This document shows, piece by piece, positions 11,482 to 29,680 of a DNA stretch of 32,414 bases. Position numbers and translations under genes: made by a program. The notes beneath the pieces were generated by a model. That model had not been told where the DNA came from. It was given only the letters and a program-made list of their open reading frames with translations, and did no database searches. Positions within the stretch are counted from its first letter, which is position 1; each line of letters starts with the position of its first letter. The DNA comes from Thermoproteales archaeon (lineage in GTDB: Archaea > Thermoproteota > Thermoprotei > Thermofilales > B69-G16): contig JAGGZW010000003.1 of NCBI GenBank assembly GCA_021161825.1, positions 1 through 32,414 on the forward strand, written 5' to 3'.

Positions 11482-12708
11482 ATGAAAATTAAGTCCAAGC
11501 ATAGAGACGAGGTTAGGCTTTACTATAATCTAGGAGAAAGGGTGGAGATTGGCGATCTTCTAGAAATTTCTGAAGATGATCGAAGCGTTATAGTTCAAGT
11601 TGTGGACATAGAGCAAAATACTGAGCTTATGCTTTCCGGGGACAAAGGCTTAGAAGTACTAGCGAAAATTAGGCTTGAAGGTTTTGGAGGCGAGTTCAGA
11701 ACCTATAGAGAGTGGAGTGGATGGTTTCCCTCCTCTCCCATGCTCATAAAAAGAATAAATGCAAGCAGCGTCCTATCCCCCGATATTGCTCAGGAAAGGC
11801 TTTTCATAGGATACGAAAAAGGAACTAAAGCTCCATTTTTCATCCCTCTAACAAGCTTAAAAACCTTAAATGTTATCGCCGGCTTAGATAGTGAAGAACT
11901 GTTGGCTGTTTTAACCTCGATATTATACATAAAAAACAATGATATTCTAGTAATAGATCTTACCGGCAGATTTCATAAAATACTTAAACTAGTGCTAAGA
12001 AGCAGTAAAATAAAAACGTCCTATTTCAAACTTGGTAAAGATTTTAAAATTAAAGGCAAAGATATTCCTGTCGATGCTTTGGCTAAATACCTTAATTTCT
12101 TTGAAATAGACGCATTAACAATTAACTTAATCGATAATATTTTCAAAAATATAATTAACTCGGATAAAGTTCTGAACAGTCTGGAAAAAATTGCAGAAAT
12201 AATCTCGGCTAGGAAAGATATGGAATTTCTAGCAGACTTAATATCTTCGCTAAATGAAATCACAACATGGTATGGCGAATCTTTTTATCCAGAAGATTTC
12301 ACTGTTATCGATGCATCAGAATGCAGTAATACTTCGGCTTTATTCGCAATACTTTATTATCTACTAAATTCTGGACGTTTTATCCTCGCTGTAAATGGCA
12401 TTCAAAACTTGGTCATTAATGAAAAAGAGCAACTTGCCCGGCTAATCTTAGCAAGGAAAAAACCCGTATTCGTTAACATTGACGTCGATAGCGAGACGAG
12501 CGTATATTTGAGACACGCGGTAAACATCTTTTTCACAGGACCATACAATAGAATATTGGATGATATTTTACCGCTAGTTGAAAACGAGGAACCTTTAATA
12601 CGTAAGCTGTCTATAGGAGAATTTCTAGTTAACGGACTGGCGACGAAAAACACGCCCATAATATTATTAACTCCTCAAGTAGAAGACGCATTAACCGTAA
12701 GAGGATGA
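11482..12708 (+). CDS. HerA-like protein with degenerate P-loop
   Basis: A 408-residue protein whose layout follows HerA/DUF87 hexameric translocases. Residues 1-60 look like the HAS-barrel (DEVRLYYNLGERVEIGDLLEI). PFFIPLTSLKTLNVIAGLDS (119-137) aligns with the strand that leads into the P-loop, but the GxxGSGKS residues are replaced by AGLDSEELL. DILVIDLTGRF (154-164) parallels the VIDPKGEY segment. The DEA/H region reads ILAVNGIQNL, without acidic residues. The end, IGEFLVNGLATKNTPIILLTP, matches the HerA C-terminal strand pair. No ATPase motif survives, so it is probably a structural or partner subunit. Its stop codon lies four bases before the DUF72-SWIM start, so the two form an operon. 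The HerA assignment is a fold-level reading; a distant relative is possible. Confidence 0.55.
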   Translation: MKIKSKHRDEVRLYYNLGERVEIGDLLEISEDDRSVIVQVVDIEQNTELMLSGDKGLEVLAKIRLEGFGGEFRTYREWSGWFPSSPMLIKRINASSVLSPDIAQERLFIGYEKGTKAPFFIPLTSLKTLNVIAGLDSEELLAVLTSILYIKNNDILVIDLTGRFHKILKLVLRSSKIKTSYFKLGKDFKIKGKDIPVDALAKYLNFFEIDALTINLIDNIFKNIINSDKVLNSLEKIAEIISARKDMEFLADLISSLNEITTWYGESFYPEDFTVIDASECSNTSALFAILYYLLNSGRFILAVNGIQNLVINEKEQLARLILARKKPVFVNIDVDSETSVYLRHAVNIFFTGPYNRILDDILPLVENEEPLIRKLSIGEFLVNGLATKNTPIILLTPQVEDALTVRG

Positions 12709-12712
12709 TAAA

Positions 12713-13882
12713 ATGCTATTGTCTAGGCTATACATAGGTACTTCCGGATGGGATTATGACGATTGGATAGGCCCTTTTTACGCTGAAGATAAACGATTAT
12801 TCTCCCAATATTACGAAATATTTAACACTGTAGAGATAAACTCAACATTTTACTCATATCCAACCTTAAATTTCATGAAAGGCTTGGCTAGAATTGCCCC
12901 GTGGGGTTTTAAGTTTTCGGCAAAAATTCCAAAAGAAATAACACATAAGAAAAAAGTAAACACAAAGCTGGGAGTTGAAAATGACTTAAACCGATTTTTA
13001 GGTTTATTGCAACCTTTAAAGTCTGAGAGAAAGCTAGGTGCTCTTCTAATACAACTTCCTCCTCTCGCTCGAAACGAAATACCCTATTTTGAAGATTTTT
13101 TAAATATTCTTCCATCTACCAAGTATAGATTTTCTATAGAGTTTCGTCACGATTCGTGGCTATGCCAAGAGATATACTCTATGCTCGAAAAATACAACAT
13201 AGCATTTACAATAGTCGACGAACCTTTACTTCCGCCGATAGTCAAGGTAACTGCTGGGTTTGCCTATATAAGGTGGCATGGAAGGGGAGAACGCCCATGG
13301 TATTACTATATGTATACTCTAAAAGAGTTAGAAGAGTGGGTTCCAAGAATTAAGGAAATTATGAATTCAGTAGGCATCGTTTTTGGATATTTCAATAATC
13401 ACTTTAGAGGCTATGCTCCTCGAAATGCTCTTCAAATGTTAAGTTTGCTGGGACTCATTAACAAGAGCCAACGCTTGAAGCTGCAGGAGATCGACTACTA
13501 CTTTAGTAGAAAGGCTATAGAAATTACAAAAGAAAAAGCGAAGAAAATTACTCCTGAAAAAGCCGAGCTAGAAGAGTTACTCCTGCTTTTCTTAAACGAA
13601 AAGCGTTTAGAAAGAGCGAAAGGAATACCCGACAGCCAAGTTATTTTAGAGAAAGTAAGTGATAACTTGATAAAGGCGAGGGTAAAAAATTATAGAATAT
13701 TAATTGATGTGGAAAAGAAATTAATTAAGCATGATTGCGAAGATTGGAAAAAGCGCTGCATATCGATGCAATTCTGTAAGCATATGGGGAAGCTCTTCCT
13801 CGTTTTACCTAAAAAACTAGGAAAATCTTTACTTTTAAAAATTATTGACGAAATAGACGAGTGGGAATTCAAAGAATTTTAA
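12713..13882 (+). CDS. DUF72 protein with C-terminal SWIM-like zinc motif
   Basis: Residues 1-245 are a complete DUF72 TIM-barrel domain: LYIGTSGWDYDDW at the start, FNTVEINSTFYSYP, FKFSAKIPKEITH, IEFRHDSWL and YIRWHGRGERPWYYY, ending FGYFNNHFRGYAPRNAL. DUF72 is widespread with no firmly established activity. About 145 extra residues follow, ending with H340-x-C342-x6-C349-x5-C355-x-H357, which resembles a SWIM zinc finger (CxC...CxH) with the first Cys replaced by His, in the context DCEDW...FCKHMGKLFLVLP. SWIM domains mediate DNA or protein binding, often in recombination mediators. GAGGATGA precedes the ATG and overlaps the stop of the HerA-like gene. Confidence 0.8.
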   Translation: MLLSRLYIGTSGWDYDDWIGPFYAEDKRLFSQYYEIFNTVEINSTFYSYPTLNFMKGLARIAPWGFKFSAKIPKEITHKKKVNTKLGVENDLNRFLGLLQPLKSERKLGALLIQLPPLARNEIPYFEDFLNILPSTKYRFSIEFRHDSWLCQEIYSMLEKYNIAFTIVDEPLLPPIVKVTAGFAYIRWHGRGERPWYYYMYTLKELEEWVPRIKEIMNSVGIVFGYFNNHFRGYAPRNALQMLSLLGLINKSQRLKLQEIDYYFSRKAIEITKEKAKKITPEKAELEELLLLFLNEKRLERAKGIPDSQVILEKVSDNLIKARVKNYRILIDVEKKLIKHDCEDWKKRCISMQFCKHMGKLFLVLPKKLGKSLLLKIIDEIDEWEFKEF

Positions 13883-14762: not shown

Positions 14763-16292
14763 ATGCCAAGAGTTTCTCGAGAAAGAATAGGTTTAATTCT
14801 CGGTCCATTAACCTTCCTATTTTTAGCTCTCGCACCGCCGCTACCAGGCGTTGAAAAAGCAGCGCTAGAAGCTGGAGTAGCATCTCCTATTTATCCACAG
14901 CTGGCTCTAGGCGTTATGTTATGGACTGCAATATGGTGGATCACAGAGTGCGTTCCATTAGGCTTAGCATCCCTAATTCCGCCTATAATATTTTCTTTCA
15001 GCGGCATCTTAGCCTGGAAACAGGCGCTTATGATGTTTACTCATCCACTGATATGGATTTTTATGGGAGGATTTGTGATAGCGAAGGCTTTCCAGGTATG
15101 GGGGTTAGATAAGAGGATAGCTTTAACCTTGTCTAGCCTTTACAAAGGTAATAATCCAATGCTAGCAACCTTTTTCATAGCCTGCCTACCAGCATTCCTT
15201 TTAACCATAACAGGATCTATCACAGCTTCAACGTCAATAGTTTACCCGATAGTTCTCGCCTATTTAACCTCGATGGGATTTGGGAAGGGTAGTAGGTATG
15301 CTGAAGCCACTATGCTAGCTCTAGGCCAAGCCGCTACGGCTGGCGCTATGCTATTATTGATAAGCACACCTCCAAATTTAATCGCTAAAGGAGTTATCGA
15401 AGAAACCGTAAAAGGAGTAACAATAACCTTTTTTGACTGGTTTATCGTAGGAACGCCTCACGCTATTATAGGATTACTGATAACTTGGGTGATCGTATTC
15501 GTATTGCTGAAGCCTGAAATCAAAGAGCTTAAAATATCCAGGGAAATGATTTTAGAAGAAAAGAAAAAACTGGGACCTATTAAGAAACAAGAAAAAATAA
15601 TATTGACTATATTTATTTTAACACTTCTTCTCTGGATGACGCCTGGAATAGTAATGATACTAGCGTCAATAAATCCTCAATACGTCCAATTAAGCGAGAG
15701 CATAGCCAATATACTCCCTGAAGCCGCACCAGCCGCCTTAGCTATATTGTTACTAGGCTTAATAAGCGTAGAAGGAAAGTCAATCTTAACGTGGAAAGAA
15801 ATAGAGACTGGTATTGACTGGAACGTTGTTTTTCTATTCGGAGGAGGATTAGCTATGGGAAGCGGATTATATAAAAGCGGTTTCTCGGAGTGGCTTGTTC
15901 TTTTGCTAACTGAAGGTTTCGCGTTGAAGATGGATTTATGGACTGTTACGGCGTTTGGAGCAGTATTGGGATTCGCTATAACCTATCCAGCTTCGAATAC
16001 TGCCTCAACTATTATATCGGCGCCAATAGCTGCTACCATGTCAATAGCTGCTGGAATAAATCCTGTACCAGCAGTTATAGCAACTGGCCTTGCATGTTCA
16101 ATTTCTAGCGCTTTACCGAGTACGACGCCACCGATGGCGATAGTTTACGGATCAAAGTATATTAAGCTATGGAACATGTTTAAGGTAGGAATGGTGGCAG
16201 ATTTTCTGAGGCTCGTAATATTACTATTGTTGACTCCTTACCTGACTATGCTACTAATGCAGGTGAAAAGTATACCGCTATATCTACCCTAA
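14763..16292 (+). CDS. DASS (SLC13) family sodium:anion/dicarboxylate transporter
   Basis: An integral membrane transporter of about 509 residues and 11-12 hydrophobic segments in the divalent anion:sodium symporter family. Both inverted-repeat signature regions are visible: TGSITASTSIVYP with the following LLISTPPNLIAKG hairpin, and YPASNTASTIISAPIAATM with ALPSTTPPMAIVYG. Likely substrates are C4-dicarboxylates, citrate or sulfate; the sequence alone does not decide. Start at the ATG at 14763, preceded by AAGGTG nine bases upstream; a GTG at 14751 overlaps that site and is less likely. The stop overlaps the convergent GalT-like gene. Confidence 0.88.
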   Translation: MPRVSRERIGLILGPLTFLFLALAPPLPGVEKAALEAGVASPIYPQLALGVMLWTAIWWITECVPLGLASLIPPIIFSFSGILAWKQALMMFTHPLIWIFMGGFVIAKAFQVWGLDKRIALTLSSLYKGNNPMLATFFIACLPAFLLTITGSITASTSIVYPIVLAYLTSMGFGKGSRYAEATMLALGQAATAGAMLLLISTPPNLIAKGVIEETVKGVTITFFDWFIVGTPHAIIGLLITWVIVFVLLKPEIKELKISREMILEEKKKLGPIKKQEKIILTIFILTLLLWMTPGIVMILASINPQYVQLSESIANILPEAAPAALAILLLGLISVEGKSILTWKEIETGIDWNVVFLFGGGLAMGSGLYKSGFSEWLVLLLTEGFALKMDLWTVTAFGAVLGFAITYPASNTASTIISAPIAATMSIAAGINPVPAVIATGLACSISSALPSTTPPMAIVYGSKYIKLWNMFKVGMVADFLRLVILLLLTPYLTMLLMQVKSIPLYLP

Positions 16293-17515
16293 TTAACTAC
16301 TATATCGCTTACTATCTTTCTAAGCTCAACAGCTACTTTTTCAGGTGCTACTCTCGCAACTCTACACGAGTCCAGCATTTCTATACCGCCTATACGCTCG
16401 AACGGTATGATATCTATGAAAAGGTGAAATAGTGAGTTGTAGCCTATAGGGTTAGAGTACACCAGTAAATTTCTGTGAGAACTAACTCCTAATGCGTCTA
16501 ACCCTTTCGATATTCTTATTAAAATTTCAGCTAAACCTTCTAGTTCTATCTCGTCTAGGTCTGTAAATCTTTCAACGTGTCTTTTCGGCGTTACTCTCAA
16601 ATGATAATTTCTGCGTGGTGAAAGCGATGTCCATGCCAGCCAAGTGCTATTTTCGTATACTATTCTACCATCATGTTTACTAGTGCATAGATAGCATATC
16701 CCTCTTCTCTTCATTTCATCAAATGCTTGCAAAATCTGCTCCATGAAAGCTCCATGACCGTCAAGGTTAAGATCGATGTATATTTGCGAGTGTAGTCTTG
16801 GCTGGCTGCCTCCAGCCATAACACCTATGTTGAAAAACGGATATACCGGAACTAACGTGAAACCTTTTTTCTTGGCAGCATCAGCCACGCTAAGTATGGA
16901 GTTCTTCATAGATTTTAGGATCGCAAGTAAGTCTTTAAGTCTAACATCGCTAAGCGTTTCGCTATAGTTAACAGGGAACGTGACTAAGTTTATTCCATAA
17001 GCTATTCGCGTGAACTCGTCTTCAATCGCTGATTTCACCTCGTCTAGTATCTCCCTGTCTATATACCTTACTGTCGCAGGATAGCGGTTTATTATAGTTG
17101 CAACTCTACTATCTTCTATGTTTAAACATTCTGGAGTCAGAGAGAAAGGATCGCTTCTCCGCACACAGTCAATGTCAACAAATATAGCGTAGTCGTTGCC
17201 CTCTATTATAGGTTTGAAAACATCTTTAGCCCTTTTTTGATTTTTCATTTTCTCTTCGCTTATAGGTCTGGCCCCCCTTATCGGGCTTATATACGAAAAA
17301 TGCCCTTTACGCTTGCCAATGCCTACGAGTTTCCTGCTAATCTCATCGTATAATTTAATTTCAACCGAGGTTAGAGGATCCCATCTCTTGCGTGGAATAT
17401 ACCTTACGTATTCTGGTGAAAAGTTATACTTTGTTATTATACCCCAGTGCATAAAAGGTATTTTTTCGAGTTTCATGACAGAATAAGGCCTCTTTTCTGT
17501 CGATAGGTTCGTCAT
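16289..17515 (-). CDS. GalT-like nucleotidyltransferase (HIT superfamily)
   Basis: A 408-residue protein resembling galactose-1-phosphate uridylyltransferase and related HIT enzymes. In the first half, N-ATVRYI and a region resembling the nucleotide-binding strand lead to PRLHSQIYIDL, where the nucleophile motif HPHGQ would lie; one His and the Gln are kept. The second half has a CYLC pair, a short YHLRVTPKRHVERF strand typical of GalT (resembling the I-P-x-x-H region) and NSLFHLFIDIIP, equivalent to the second HIT repeat. It is about 60 residues longer than E. coli GalT. Substrate uncertain; it may be a phosphorylase or nucleotidyltransferase other than GalT. It lies 59 bases after the membrane AAA+ gene on the same strand. 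No clear ribosome site precedes the ATG at 17515; an ATG at 17476 is an alternative. Confidence 0.7.
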   Translation of the reverse strand: MTNLSTEKRPYSVMKLEKIPFMHWGIITKYNFSPEYVRYIPRKRWDPLTSVEIKLYDEISRKLVGIGKRKGHFSYISPIRGARPISEEKMKNQKRAKDVFKPIIEGNDYAIFVDIDCVRRSDPFSLTPECLNIEDSRVATIINRYPATVRYIDREILDEVKSAIEDEFTRIAYGINLVTFPVNYSETLSDVRLKDLLAILKSMKNSILSVADAAKKKGFTLVPVYPFFNIGVMAGGSQPRLHSQIYIDLNLDGHGAFMEQILQAFDEMKRRGICYLCTSKHDGRIVYENSTWLAWTSLSPRRNYHLRVTPKRHVERFTDLDEIELEGLAEILIRISKGLDALGVSSHRNLLVYSNPIGYNSLFHLFIDIIPFERIGGIEMLDSCRVARVAPEKVAVELRKIVSDIVVN

Positions 17516-17574: not shown

Positions 17575-20217
17575 TCAGCTATCGTTATCTCCTTTTTCTA
17601 TTTTATAAGGAATAGAAAGCTGAATTGATCTTCTATGTTTTAGATAAAACTCGTAACATTCAGCCATCATATCATCGGTGATACTTGGACTGGTCGACTC
17701 GATAATCGTGACTAAATCAGCATAAGTTACCTCTGGATCACCGCCTTGTAATGATCGCTTAGCAGCTCTCATTTTTGCCTCGTTGCAAATATAAACTATG
17801 TCGGCAGCTGAAAAACCTTGAGTTAGTTCAGCTAGCCTTTCGTAATCTAGGTTTTTAATAGCTACATTTTCTAGTTCTTTTTTGAACAACTCCATTCTTG
17901 CAGCCTTGGTGGGTGGGGGTATGTAAAGTATTTTATCAAATCGGCCAGGTCTAAGTAGCGCCGGATCCATACTTGAAGGTTTATTTGTTGCAGCAAGTAT
18001 CACGACGTTTTTTAAATTTCTGATACCATCCATCTCGACTAAGAATTGTGCTAGAAGCCTACGGGTTTTCTCGGAAGACTCTGAACGAGAAGGAACTAAA
18101 GCATCTATTTCGTCTAGGAAGATTATAGCTGGCGCGTTTTCTCTAGCTCTGGCAAAGATCTTTTTAACATTTTGCTCGGGGTTATCACCTACTGTTATCT
18201 CGCTGCACTGTACTTCGATGAACTGCACTTGAAGCTCGTTAGCTACAGCTCTAGCTAACATTGTTTTTCCGCATCCTGGAGGGCCAAAAAGTAGTATACC
18301 CCTGGGCTGCCGTATGTTATATTTCTCTAGAAGTTCTGGATGCTTTAAAGGTATTATGATGCTGTCCAATATTTCCGATTTAGCATATTCGAGATCAACT
18401 ATATCATCCAGCCTTACGGGAGAGATAAGAGATTCTCTATGGGCGGTAGTTTTAACTCTCTCATAATCCATTCTAAACTTCTCGTATTTCTCTAACATTT
18501 CGTAGGTTATGCTGGGCTTAAATCTTCTGATTACAGCTATAAAATCTCCAAGCCCAATTAGTCTTTTCCTACCTTTTATAGAATCTCTTGCAGCTCTTCT
18601 AGCAGCTTCCCTAACAACAGCGGCGATATCAGCTCCGCTGAAGCGCTCAGTCATTTCAGCCAATATAGCGAAATCGACGTCTTTAGCTAATGGTAAACCT
18701 CTGCAATGTATTCTGAAAATTTCCTCCCTGGCTTTCTTATCGGGGGGAGGCACGTACAAAACCTTATCAAATCTTCCCGGTCTTAGCAATGCATCATCTA
18801 AAACATCGGGCATGTTCGTAGCACCTACTACAAGCACATTTTCTGAAGACTCCAATCCGTCCATTTCGCTCAATATAATGCTGAGAAGCCTAGGGGCAAC
18901 ATCGTCTGTTGAATATGAATCTCTCTTTCTAGCGATAGCATCGATTTCATCGAAGAATAAAATGCATGGAGCCTCTCTTCTGGCAAGAGCAAATATCTTT
19001 GCAAGTTTTTGCTCGCTTTCTCCATACCACTTGCTCATTATATCGCTGCACTTTACGTGTATAAACTTCATTTTTAAACGAGAAGCTAGTGCCTTCATTA
19101 GAAGCGTTTTTCCACAACCTGGAGGCCCGAAGAGCAATATGCCCTTTGGAATAGATAAATTAAACTCTTTTGCTAGCTTAGCCTTTTCCAGAGGCAATAA
19201 TATAGATTCTTGAAGCTCAAACTTTATATTATCTAATCCTCCTATATCTTCAAACCTGACCTTTTGCCTTTTTGACGGCGTAAACAATCCTATTTCGCTT
19301 AATGTTGTGCTGAACTTTTCTTCTTCTCTAAATCTGTTTACGATTCCGGCAATACTACCAAATACTATAGAAAATGATGTCGTCATAAGAATAAAGGGTA
19401 GATAGAAATCGAAGTCTATTGGTTGCGCGAACATAACGTTAATCGTGCTCGAGAAAATCAACGCGATAATGCTTGAAACAAGCAGTGAAGTAAGAATTAT
19501 TCTTATTCTAGAATAATTCTTACCAGCAAGAGATGCTAAACCATACGGAGCTACAGTATAAGCTATTAAGAGACTCAATGGCATCATACCATAAGATAAG
19601 AGGTTAAAATACAAACATTGAAGCATCGAAGAAGCTTCTTTAACGGCTTGAGACGAAAAAACAGGCGTTAGGTATTGAGCTATATCGAAATTCTCTGGTA
19701 TAGGCCTGGGATATGTTACAAGACCATATGCTTGAGACAGTATAAATCCTCTATTGATTATCCCCGCTGGAAAAATCCATGTTAAGAGAGAAAACACTGT
19801 CAGAGAATACATAAGCCCCAGCATAGAAGCTGTTACGGGATCGAAGAAAATGGCGGAAGCGATCAAAGCCGACGCAACGAATTGTCCCATAAACTGCTCG
19901 GTAATGCCTATTCCAACCGATATTAAGTAAATAGCCCCAGCAAGCCAATGTCTTCTAGTTAATGAGAAAAACGGTATTGTCAGAATAAGATGTAGCAACC
20001 CTAGTCCTGGACTGTAATATGCCATTGCTGGAACAGCAATCAACCATATTAGAATTAGAGCCAGCTTTGGATGTCTTAATGACACCAGAAGAACCGCAGA
20101 GAAAAGAGCTACTTGGACGTAACCAGAATAAAATGGTAGAAGCTTCATGACAGAATAAAACGCGAAAGAGATAATGATGGATTGCACTAAGCTTTTCACG
20201 ATGTCCCTACTTATCAT
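17575..20217 (-). CDS. membrane-anchored double AAA+ ATPase (Cdc48/VAT-like)
   Basis: An 880-residue protein. Residues 1-300 hold about seven or eight hydrophobic segments. Residues 318-590 are the first AAA+ domain: Walker A GPPGCGKT at 364-371, Walker B FFDEID at 421-426, GATN sensor and LLRPGRFD arginine-finger motif. Residues 600-850 are the second: Walker A 645-652, Walker B FLDEID at 700-705, and the same finger motif. The first pore loop has KWYGESE; the equivalent position in the second reads TVGDNPEQN and lacks the aromatic residue. No HExxH protease motif and no Cdc48 N-domain are present, so it is neither FtsH nor classical Cdc48. Likely a membrane-bound unfoldase or remodeller, perhaps feeding the proteasome (inference). 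GGGGAT precedes the ATG closely. Confidence 0.88.
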   Translation of the reverse strand: MISRDIVKSLVQSIIISFAFYSVMKLLPFYSGYVQVALFSAVLLVSLRHPKLALILIWLIAVPAMAYYSPGLGLLHLILTIPFFSLTRRHWLAGAIYLISVGIGITEQFMGQFVASALIASAIFFDPVTASMLGLMYSLTVFSLLTWIFPAGIINRGFILSQAYGLVTYPRPIPENFDIAQYLTPVFSSQAVKEASSMLQCLYFNLLSYGMMPLSLLIAYTVAPYGLASLAGKNYSRIRIILTSLLVSSIIALIFSSTINVMFAQPIDFDFYLPFILMTTSFSIVFGSIAGIVNRFREEEKFSTTLSEIGLFTPSKRQKVRFEDIGGLDNIKFELQESILLPLEKAKLAKEFNLSIPKGILLFGPPGCGKTLLMKALASRLKMKFIHVKCSDIMSKWYGESEQKLAKIFALARREAPCILFFDEIDAIARKRDSYSTDDVAPRLLSIILSEMDGLESSENVLVVGATNMPDVLDDALLRPGRFDKVLYVPPPDKKAREEIFRIHCRGLPLAKDVDFAILAEMTERFSGADIAAVVREAARRAARDSIKGRKRLIGLGDFIAVIRRFKPSITYEMLEKYEKFRMDYERVKTTAHRESLISPVRLDDIVDLEYAKSEILDSIIIPLKHPELLEKYNIRQPRGILLFGPPGCGKTMLARAVANELQVQFIEVQCSEITVGDNPEQNVKKIFARARENAPAIIFLDEIDALVPSRSESSEKTRRLLAQFLVEMDGIRNLKNVVILAATNKPSSMDPALLRPGRFDKILYIPPPTKAARMELFKKELENVAIKNLDYERLAELTQGFSAADIVYICNEAKMRAAKRSLQGGDPEVTYADLVTIIESTSPSITDDMMAECYEFYLKHRRSIQLSIPYKIEKGDNDS
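19490..19523. repeat. perfect 14-bp inverted repeat inside the AAA+ gene
   Basis: Arms at 19490-19503 (GTAAGAATTATTCT) and 19510-19523 are exact reverse complements with a six-base loop. The repeat lies in the part of the AAA+ gene encoding the loop before a membrane segment (around GKNYSRIRIILTS). In mRNA it would form a stable AT-rich hairpin. It does not interrupt the frame and there is no flanking transposon sequence. Confidence 0.75.
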
Positions 20218-21099: not shown

Positions 21100-22140
21100 T
21101 TGGAGTTAAATCTCCCAAGAACAATAGAGTGGGATGATGGAAAAGTTAGATTGATAAATCAGCTAAAATTGCCTCATAGGCTAGAATATATCGAAACTAG
21201 AAATTGGCGCAGAGTAGCCGAAGCAATTAAAGTCATGGAAATCAGGGGGGCGCCAGCTATAGGAGTGGCTGCTGCTTTTTCGCTCGCATTATTCGTTCAG
21301 GAGCTTTCCACTAGCGATGTTAGAGATGCCTTGAATAAGTTTGAAAAAGCCGCGGAATACGTCGAGAAGACCCGCCCAACAGCCGTTAACTTATTCTGGG
21401 CTGTTAAAAGGATTAAGAAAGTAGCCTACGGTGCTGAAACTATCGACGATTTAAAGCGGTTAGTCGTTGACGAAGCTTTAAGAATATGGAGGGAAGACGA
21501 GGAAACTAATAGGAAAATCGGCGAAGTTGGAGAAAAGCTGATACCAGATGGCGGAACGGTTATTACCGTTTGCAACGCTGGCTCTTTAGCAACAAGTTAT
21601 TATGGAACCGTTACCGCGCCAATATATACCTCGTATTTGAGAGGTAAAGAGGTAAGCGTTATAGCTATGGAAACTCGCCCATACTTACAAGGGGCTAGAT
21701 TAACAGCTTGGGAACTTAATAAAGTGGGTATACCTGTTAAAATAATAACGGACAATTCGATAGGAATTGTAGTTATGAAAGAAAGGGTCGACGTAGCGCT
21801 TGTAGGTGCCGACAGGATAACGAGAAAAGGCTACGTAGCGAATAAAATAGGCACCTATCCATTAGCCTTGGTTTGCCGCGAGCAGAAAGTGCCATTCTAT
21901 ACAGTAGCCCCTACTAGCACGATCGACTTATCTTTAGAGGATGGTAGTCAAATAGTCATAGAGAAAAGAGATCCTGAAGAAGTTTTGAGCATATTCGGGC
22001 GGAGAATAGCGCCTGAGGGTGTGAGCGCAATATACTATGCCTTCGACATAACCCCACCCACCTTGGTAAACGGTATTGTTACAGAGCTAGGTATAATTGG
22101 AAAGCCGTTTGAATATAACATAACCAAACTTTTGTCTTGA
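21100..22140 (+). CDS. mtnA: MtnA-type S-methyl-5-thioribose-1-phosphate isomerase (aIF2B-like family)
   Basis: Sugar-phosphate aldose-ketose isomerase of 346 residues, the size of MtnA. Hallmarks are IRGAPAIGVAAAF, TRPTAVNLFWA, VCNAGSLAT with catalytic C158, ETRPYLQGARLTAWEL, and LVGADRI with catalytic D238, then NKIGTYPLA, PTSTIDLSLEDG and RRIAPEGV. These favour methylthioribose-1-phosphate isomerase (salvage of 5'-methylthioadenosine) over ribose-1,5-bisphosphate isomerase, whose motifs (THCHS, GADSI) differ. HCNAG is the usual motif, so V157 in place of His is a small oddity. Start is TTG with a strong GGGAGGT eight bases upstream. Because form III RuBisCO lies 6 kb away, a role in pentose-phosphate supply deserves testing. 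Confidence 0.87.
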   Translation: MELNLPRTIEWDDGKVRLINQLKLPHRLEYIETRNWRRVAEAIKVMEIRGAPAIGVAAAFSLALFVQELSTSDVRDALNKFEKAAEYVEKTRPTAVNLFWAVKRIKKVAYGAETIDDLKRLVVDEALRIWREDEETNRKIGEVGEKLIPDGGTVITVCNAGSLATSYYGTVTAPIYTSYLRGKEVSVIAMETRPYLQGARLTAWELNKVGIPVKIITDNSIGIVVMKERVDVALVGADRITRKGYVANKIGTYPLALVCREQKVPFYTVAPTSTIDLSLEDGSQIVIEKRDPEEVLSIFGRRIAPEGVSAIYYAFDITPPTLVNGIVTELGIIGKPFEYNITKLLS

Positions 22141-28292: not shown

Positions 28293-28393
28293 GAATATAG
28301 TTGGATATTATAGCCTTGTAATACTCTTACGAAATAGTTCAAAACTTGATTAACTTTATTATTGTTCCAGGTATTAAGTTATCAGGTGTTCGA

Positions 28394-29680
28394 ATGGTAT
28401 ACTTAGAGTTTATTGATAAAAGTTACATACCTTCCGAGGATGAGCTTATAGCGCTTTATAGAATAGAACCCGCTAAAGGGTTTAGCATTGAAGAGGCTGC
28501 AGGTAGGGTAGCCAGTGAAAGTAGTGTCGGCACATGGACTGAAGTTACTACAATGAAAGACCATGTTATGGCGATACGCGCGCTTGCATACGATTTTAAT
28601 GGTTACTATGTTAAGATAGCTTATAAATTAGATCTCTTCGAACCTGGGAATATATGTCAGATAATAAGTGCTATCGCCGGTAATGTTTTCGGAATGAAAG
28701 CTGTCAGGAATTTAAGATTGGAAGATATTTACTGGCCTCCTGGTATAGTTAGAGAGTATAACGGTCCCCTTTTCGGAATAAAGGGAGTTAGGGACTTGTT
28801 TAAAGTCTACGATAGACCTTTAACAGCTACTGTTCCCAAACCTAAAGTCGGATTGTATCCAGATGAGTACGCTGAAGCATCGTATGAAATAATGATTGGG
28901 GGCGTGGATCTGGTAAAAGATGACGAGAATAATACAAGCATGAAATTCTGTAAATTTAAGGAAAGAGTGGAGAAAGTGCTTAAAATGCGGGATAAAGCTG
29001 AGGCAGAAACTGGTGAAAAGAAGGGATTTCTAGCTAATATCACGGCTCCATTTGGCGAGATGGTGAAAAGAGCTAAGTTCGTTAAAGATTTGGGTGGAGA
29101 ATACGTGATGATAGATATCTTGACGGTAGGCTGGTCGGCACTACAGGAATTTATGAAAATAAACCAGGATCTTAAGCTTAGAATACACGCTCATAGAGCG
29201 TTCCACGCGGCATTTACTAGAAAGAAAAAACATGGAATGTCGATGAAAGTTGTTGCCGAGTTTGCCCGATTATTAGGTGTAGATCAGCTCCACGTGGGAA
29301 CAGTCATCGGCAAACTTGAAGCAGAGAAAATGGAAGTACTCGCCTTAACAGATATTCTTAGAAAAAACAAAGTTAGAGAAAAGCCTAGGCTTAAACTATT
29401 AGCTAAAAACTGGTTATCGCTTAAACCCGTTGTGCCAGTAAGTTCCGGCGGATTACATCCGGGTTTAATGCCCTATATCATAAAATTGTTCGGCGTCGAT
29501 CTGCTAATACAAGCTGGGGGCGGAGTTGTAGGACATCCGAAAGGTCCAAGAGCAGGTGCTGCAGCTTTAAGACAGGCAATAGATGCTGCTATAAAGGGTA
29601 TTGAGTTAGAAGAATATGCAAAAACTCACTGGGAGCTTCGCGAAGCTTTGAAAAAATGGGGATATATGCGACCTAAATAG
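28394..29680 (+). CDS. rbcL: form III RuBisCO large subunit
   Basis: Ribulose-1,5-bisphosphate carboxylase, archaeal form III, 428 residues. Catalytic residues are present: KPK (K149, K151), carbamylated Lys and metal ligands in GGVDLVKDDEN (K175, D177, E178), HAHR (H267, R268), LHVGTVIGKLE with H300 and loop-6 K307, SSGG (from S351) and the phosphate site GGGVVGHP. The active site is therefore complete, unlike form IV. GTVIGKLE, without an extra residue in loop 6, and the TWTEVTTMK start resemble methanogen-type III-a enzymes more than Thermococcus III-b. A TTG at 28346 would add 16 residues, but the ATG at 28394 has AGGTG eight bases before it and matches the family start. It likely acts in nucleotide salvage or a reductive hexulose phosphate-type pathway. 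Confidence 0.95.
   Translation: MVYLEFIDKSYIPSEDELIALYRIEPAKGFSIEEAAGRVASESSVGTWTEVTTMKDHVMAIRALAYDFNGYYVKIAYKLDLFEPGNICQIISAIAGNVFGMKAVRNLRLEDIYWPPGIVREYNGPLFGIKGVRDLFKVYDRPLTATVPKPKVGLYPDEYAEASYEIMIGGVDLVKDDENNTSMKFCKFKERVEKVLKMRDKAEAETGEKKGFLANITAPFGEMVKRAKFVKDLGGEYVMIDILTVGWSALQEFMKINQDLKLRIHAHRAFHAAFTRKKKHGMSMKVVAEFARLLGVDQLHVGTVIGKLEAEKMEVLALTDILRKNKVREKPRLKLLAKNWLSLKPVVPVSSGGLHPGLMPYIIKLFGVDLLIQAGGGVVGHPKGPRAGAAALRQAIDAAIKGIELEEYAKTHWELREALKKWGYMRPK

Follow-up and report, generated by a model that had tools for sequence, protein, structure and literature searches.

HerA is usually regarded as a motor supplying a nuclease with DNA. In the HerA-NurA system, the nuclease is bound by a face of the HAS-barrel (PMC9960219), and the K154A Walker A mutant of Sulfolobus HerA is also impaired in double-stranded DNA binding (PMC5715905). 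The literature that we searched holds no description of a HerA pseudo-ATPase, with an earlier mention possible in the 2004 FtsK-HerA survey by Iyer and colleagues. The DUF72 family lies near polB2 and is structurally close to UV-damage endonuclease (PMC11791011); we found no demonstration of a nuclease or other activity for it in the literature searched. Here we report a gene pair in which a HerA homologue without ATPase motifs adjoins a DUF72 gene. The window, that is, the whole stretch of 32,414 nucleotides that was analysed, is one contig of an archaeal draft genome that totals 1.67 Mb.

Results

A HerA homologue in three genomes of one genus

The open reading frame under study (11482-12708, forward strand) is complete, starts with ATG and encodes 408 amino acids, with coordinates exactly as given in a preliminary description of the window (Table 1). 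Its product, hereafter the window protein, has no Pfam or NCBIfam match up to an E value of 1 and no meaningful match to PADLOC or PDB profiles. A scan of the genome contigs with the window protein as the single query returned zero matches. Scanning the contigs with an alignment yielded two orthologues, on QMRG01000051.1 (Thermoprotei archaeon B69_G16) and JALURF010000152.1 (Thermofilaceae archaeon), and these two genomes of the same genus (G005 and G006) are the only ones in which orthologues were detected; viral contigs gave zero matches. The orthologues share 48-49% identity with the window protein and 73% with each other. Our sample of this protein, which we call pseudo-HerA, comprises three draft genomes of one genus of heat-loving archaea.

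Table 1 Features of the pseudo-HerA locus, in window coordinates.
Feature	Position	Strand	Remark
Pseudo-HerA gene (408 aa)	11482..12708	+	HerA2 homologue; without Walker A and without canonical Walker B
HAS-barrel-like N-terminal segment, residues 1-114 (MKIKSKxxDEV...WSGWFPSS)	11482..11823	+	E 1.5e-11 to HerA2 alone
Former Walker A region, residues 130-142 (NVIAGLDSEELLA)	11869..11907	+	3 residues shorter than HerA2; without the GKS lysine
Beta-2 strand ILVIDLTGRFH, residues 155-165	11944..11976	+	D159 invariant
Former Walker B strand, residues 299-308 (RFILAVNGIQ)	12376..12405	+	Zero acidic residues; placed by strand order
Conserved C-terminal segment, residues 331-395 (FFTGPYNR ... EFLVNGLATKNTP)	12472..12666	+	Collinear with LPPRTFLVVGTATRDYP of HerA2
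DUF72 + SWIM-like gene, putative partner (389 aa)	12713..13882	+	PF01904 E 1.9e-57; PDB 1vpq E 2.1e-32
SWIM-like HxC...CxH of the DUF72 protein (H340, C342, C355, H357)	13730..13783	+	All four invariant, 20/20

Several other genes in the window were also inspected. An 880-residue protein (17575-20217, reverse strand) has two AAA domains, the first preceded by an N-terminal region of about 315 residues, and does not reach the NCBIfam cut-offs for either CDC48 or PAN. A gene at 16289-17515 (reverse strand) encodes a 408-residue protein that has a HIT domain at its C terminus and is weakly similar to GalT. A RuBisCO large chain (28346-29680, forward strand) and an IF-2B-family protein (21100-22140, forward strand) are encoded in the same window; such proteins occur together in the archaeal nucleotide-salvage (AMP) pathway.

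Descent from HerA2

We compared the three pseudo-HerA proteins, as a profile, with several sets of HerA-related proteins. A match was found to a HerA lineage for which we coined the label HerA2. With hhalign, the full-length trio matched 58 HerA2 proteins with an E value of 1.4e-15, a probability of 98.6% and a score of 119, far above the maximum score of 21 reached by 20 column-shuffled decoy profiles. The HerA relationship proposed in the preliminary description is thereby upheld by HMM comparison. Individual HerA2 proteins from G034 and G269 matched the three-protein profile with E values of 1.4e-5 and 3.6e-7. The sequence-level significance comes mainly from residues 1 to about 200: residues 1-114 alone gave 1.5e-11 (best decoy 0.023) and residues 115-408 alone 5e-5, and the non-significant score of 20.7 for residues 266-408 (decoys up to 18.6) still had its best match at the collinear place. 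In contrast, the trio showed no significant similarity to canonical HerA1 of the same order (hhalign E 0.07), and no profile-profile match to other DUF87 paralogues or to NurA. The window protein is thus derived from HerA, specifically through HerA2, and at the level of sequence we regard the derivation from HerA as secure. A WSGW/WTGW-P motif is common to the window protein and the HerA2 members of G034, G269 and G381; in a tree the trio has a branch length of 7.5, and we take its placement only as nearest to these same members. The window protein is about 80 residues shorter than HerA2, without a loop in the barrel region and without the C-terminal GETRxFF tail.

HerA2 was present in 117 of 398 sampled Thermoproteota genomes, about 30%, in a search with the G034 protein (G034:C63/P0002). 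This protein and its counterpart on G269:C41 (ORF L102) both carry an intact GKKGTGKS and adjoin a NurA-like gene, and Pfam assigns P0002 to DUF87/HerA and P0003 to NurA. In each of the 20 HerA2 loci that we inspected, the gene directly upstream encodes NurA. The strict pattern G[KR]K[GE]xGKS is found in 57 of the 58 proteins, the exception reading GMKGMGKS. We searched the three pseudo-HerA genomes for an orthologue of the cognate NurA2, which is absent from them. The window's genome also encodes, on another contig, a canonical HerA with Mre11/NurA-like genes. As a separate observation, HerA2 combines an unusual GKK[GE]xGKS P-loop with an adjacent divergent NurA, and strong canonical DUF87 matches are found in three of six HerA2 genomes checked (G034, G399 and G096), the other three having none.

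Loss of the ATPase motifs under purifying selection

Aligned with HerA2, the window protein has LNVIAGLDSEELL at the P-loop site where HerA2 has INIIVGKKGTGKSHL. The loop reads AGLDSEELL in the window protein and AGIRSDALL or AGMRSDALL in the orthologues, such that GKKGTGKSHL of HerA2 faces GLDS---EELL, GIRS---DALL and GMRS---DALL. The Walker A signature GxxxxGK[ST], present in 58 of 58 HerA2 proteins, occurs in none of the trio, and a search for GK[ST] in all three family members found it in none. At the Walker B strand, AEEA (57 of 58 HerA2 proteins) is replaced by VNGI in the window protein (P0001), LTNI in L100 and ITNI in L101, with no acidic pair on the strand. Both losses had been read from the window sequence in the preliminary description, and both are borne out, with the alignment at the DEA/H position being less certain than that at Walker A. 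The Walker B call derives from a gap-free alignment fitting the predicted order of strands and helices; MAFFT places the invariant helix residue E316 there, and we treat the loss of Walker B as slightly less certain than that of Walker A. The beta-2 aspartate D159 is kept and invariant in the trio; the beta-2 acid has a role in ASCE ATPases (PMC9960219). From these motifs we strongly infer that pseudo-HerA has lost ATPase activity.

The landmarks that flank the lost motifs could each be located in HerA2. PL-S-LKTL corresponds to its I-a-dL lead-in, ID-TG-F to FDINDEY and the end motif GEFLVNGLATKNTPIIL to TFLVVGTATRDYPFIV, all as originally recognised. The degenerate loop is kept throughout the trio (3/3). 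Homologues with an intact P-loop exist only as the parent HerA2 lineage, which does not refute the preliminary reading.

Both orthologues are open frames. The Nei-Gojobori dN/dS for the two closest pseudo-HerA orthologues is 0.086, pairs with saturated synonymous sites having been left out, and comparison values in the genus are 0.05-0.07 for canonical HerA1 and 0.06-0.09 for DUF72. Identity within the genus is 62-80% over residues 1-90, 63-75% over residues 331-390 and 17-45% in the middle. This uneven pattern agrees with the barrel and the C-terminal segment, and not a catalytic site, being under selection. Since the frames are open, dN/dS is about 0.09 and conservation is highest in the HAS-barrel and the C-terminal segment, these genes are not pseudogenes, and the sequences place pseudo-HerA under purifying selection.

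Two AlphaFold runs from three sequences gave pLDDT values of 41 and 44, too poor for a test of the fold. For the first model, the top PDB matches include the HerA chains 8wod and 4d2i at a TM-score of 0.24-0.29, while the second gave no significant match to the PDB; neither pointed to an unrelated fold.

The DUF72-SWIM neighbour

A DUF72-SWIM-like gene stands next to pseudo-HerA on the same strand in all three genomes, separated by a gap of 4 nt in the window and overlapping by 14 nt in both relatives. The pairing first noticed in the window therefore holds in every genome that carries pseudo-HerA, and the two-gene operon is kept despite about 50% protein divergence. Gene order is the basis on which we propose a partnership between the two products. 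In the DUF72 protein, residues K71, H78, Q114, R145 and R187 and the aromatic pair F46-Y47 are invariant in 20 of 20 relatives, and they align respectively with K72, H79, Q114, R145, R191 and Y47-Y48 of TM1631, the proposed phosphate site and lesion-wedging pair of that protein (PMC3828134). The SWIM-like segment reads HxC...CxH rather than CxC...CxH, again invariant in 20/20; the Pfam SWIM model gives no match at E<=1, and the SWIM assignment is one at motif level.

DUF72-SWIM genes are found without pseudo-HerA in many other Thermofilales, often beside DNA-repair genes, and the pairing with pseudo-HerA is thus a genus-level innovation. Their neighbours elsewhere include FEN1 with an SMC/RecF-like ATPase; DUF429, dCTP deaminase and an EndoIII-type glycosylase; or SPFH-like proteins. 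No divergent pseudo-HerA was found beside DUF72-SWIM in other Thermofilales, the adjacent frames encoding SPFH/stomatin-like proteins, FEN1 and other proteins. These neighbourhoods suggest a DNA-repair role for DUF72-SWIM. With FEN1/SMC-like and base-excision-repair contexts and no pseudo-HerA, they make lesion repair at least as likely as recombination.

The individual loci differ in detail. FEN1 beside DUF72-SWIM is confirmed by Pfam in L079, where an SMC/RecF-like ATPase follows it, is clearly similar in L081 and L085, and is assigned by ORF length and position only in L082 and L086. In L077 the gene lies near DUF429, dCTP deaminase and an EndoIII-like glycosylase. A second DUF72 type exists in the order, as tandem short genes (about 260 and 310 residues) without the SWIM-like segment in G005:C62 and G012:C8 (L092 and L099).

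Discussion

We give roughly even credence to the reading that pseudo-HerA is a lineage-specific HerA pseudo-ATPase, an offshoot of the NurA-linked HerA2, providing the DUF72 enzyme with a platform that has no motor function. The simplest reading of a conserved barrel combined with a dead motor is a ring or clamp for docking, in which DUF72-SWIM has taken the place of NurA as the partner, since the HAS-barrel binds NurA in the described system. Pseudo-HerA would then neither hydrolyse ATP nor translocate DNA. Its conserved HAS-barrel would dock the DUF72-SWIM protein in place of NurA, and its conserved C-terminal segment may hold the core or the oligomer together. The DUF72-SWIM protein, presumably a TIM barrel with a phosphate site, would be an endonuclease acting at DNA lesions or DNA ends and touching DNA through its SWIM-like zinc module, and the assembly could form an ATP-independent ring or clamp that positions this enzyme on DNA for repair. 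We infer, rather than show, that the two proteins dock, that a ring forms, and that DNA is bound and cut. A DNA-end or recombination complex containing pseudo-HerA, as originally suggested, is plausible, and the whole ATP-independent repair assembly, a dead HerA ring that has exchanged NurA for a DUF72-SWIM lesion endonuclease, is a tentative and somewhat doubtful proposal. Against the platform, DUF72-SWIM manages without pseudo-HerA in most Thermofilales, and the K154A phenotype implies that a HerA without its P-loop may no longer hold DNA.

Pseudo-HerA might instead act outside DNA metabolism, binding another ligand or partner, with the DUF72 adjacency reflecting shared expression. The very divergent C-terminal half, the low-confidence structural models, the putative function of DUF72 and a divergent neighbour of the PAC2 family, which has no known DNA-repair role, would all accommodate this. 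Yet the HAS-barrel is the best conserved part, and the partner family elsewhere sits among DNA-repair genes; we consider this reading unlikely. Improbable as well is a regulatory or structural subunit that tunes the canonical active HerA-NurA or another DUF87 ATPase, the DUF72 link being co-regulation only. Sulfolobus HerA-NurA loads two of six ATP sites, making mixed rings with dead subunits conceivable (PMC5715905), and the same genome does encode a canonical HerA with Mre11/NurA-like genes. That locus, however, lies on a different contig, pseudo-HerA forms its tight operon with DUF72 and not with HerA, and it does not descend from canonical HerA1.

There is a slim chance that only the N-terminal 200 or so residues are HerA-derived and that the remainder is a domain of other origin, unrelated or brought in as a replacement. 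Taken alone, residues 266-408 show no significant similarity to HerA2, and the second AlphaFold model, in the 41-44 pLDDT range, has no HerA match, but the alpha/beta order, the length and the C-terminal strand motif EFLVNGLATKNTP are at the expected collinear places in all three proteins, and the first model does retrieve HerA chains, though at low TM-scores. That the gene is a decaying pseudogene or an assembly artefact of an intact HerA is hardly credible: motif loss, a shorter protein and draft genomes would suit it, but three independent assemblies agree in the degenerate loop and in the operon, with open frames, zero internal stops and constrained dN/dS.

If the platform reading is true, a selected, motor-dead HerA with a different putative nuclease would mean that the docking or clamp role of the HAS-barrel is separable from ATP-driven pumping. 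The locus would offer a natural HerA pseudo-ATPase platform and the first partner protein for DUF72, and the pairing would be a natural handle on the function of this widespread family.

Among known systems, HerA2 is collinear with the window protein, and each shares an operon with the gene for a putative nuclease; the motifs MxIxSKxGDE and WSGWxP of the G034 and G269 members also recur in it. HerA2, however, has GKK[GE]xGKS, AEEA, about 80 further residues and a NurA neighbour, whereas the window protein has a DUF72 neighbour. With canonical archaeal HerA-NurA (Sulfolobus 4D2I; PMC5715905), the locus shares the domain order of HAS-barrel then putative RecA-like core and a small operon with a putative DNA-processing enzyme, but lacks the ATP-binding motifs and NurA, and the canonical HerA1 of its own order has no significant direct sequence similarity to it. 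HerA-effector systems (SIR2-HerA, 8wod and relatives) and HerA/FtsK capture systems (PMC10853773) likewise couple a HerA ring to varied enzymes; their HerAs are described as translocases or ATPases, and the window locus, unlike them, has no PADLOC match and no mobile or defence context. Finally, the putative partner is a DUF72 member that keeps the proposed phosphate-site residues of TM1631 (PDB 1VPQ; PMC3828134; PMC11791011), and it differs from TM1631 in carrying an additional SWIM-like zinc segment at the C terminus and in sharing its operon with a HerA-derived gene.
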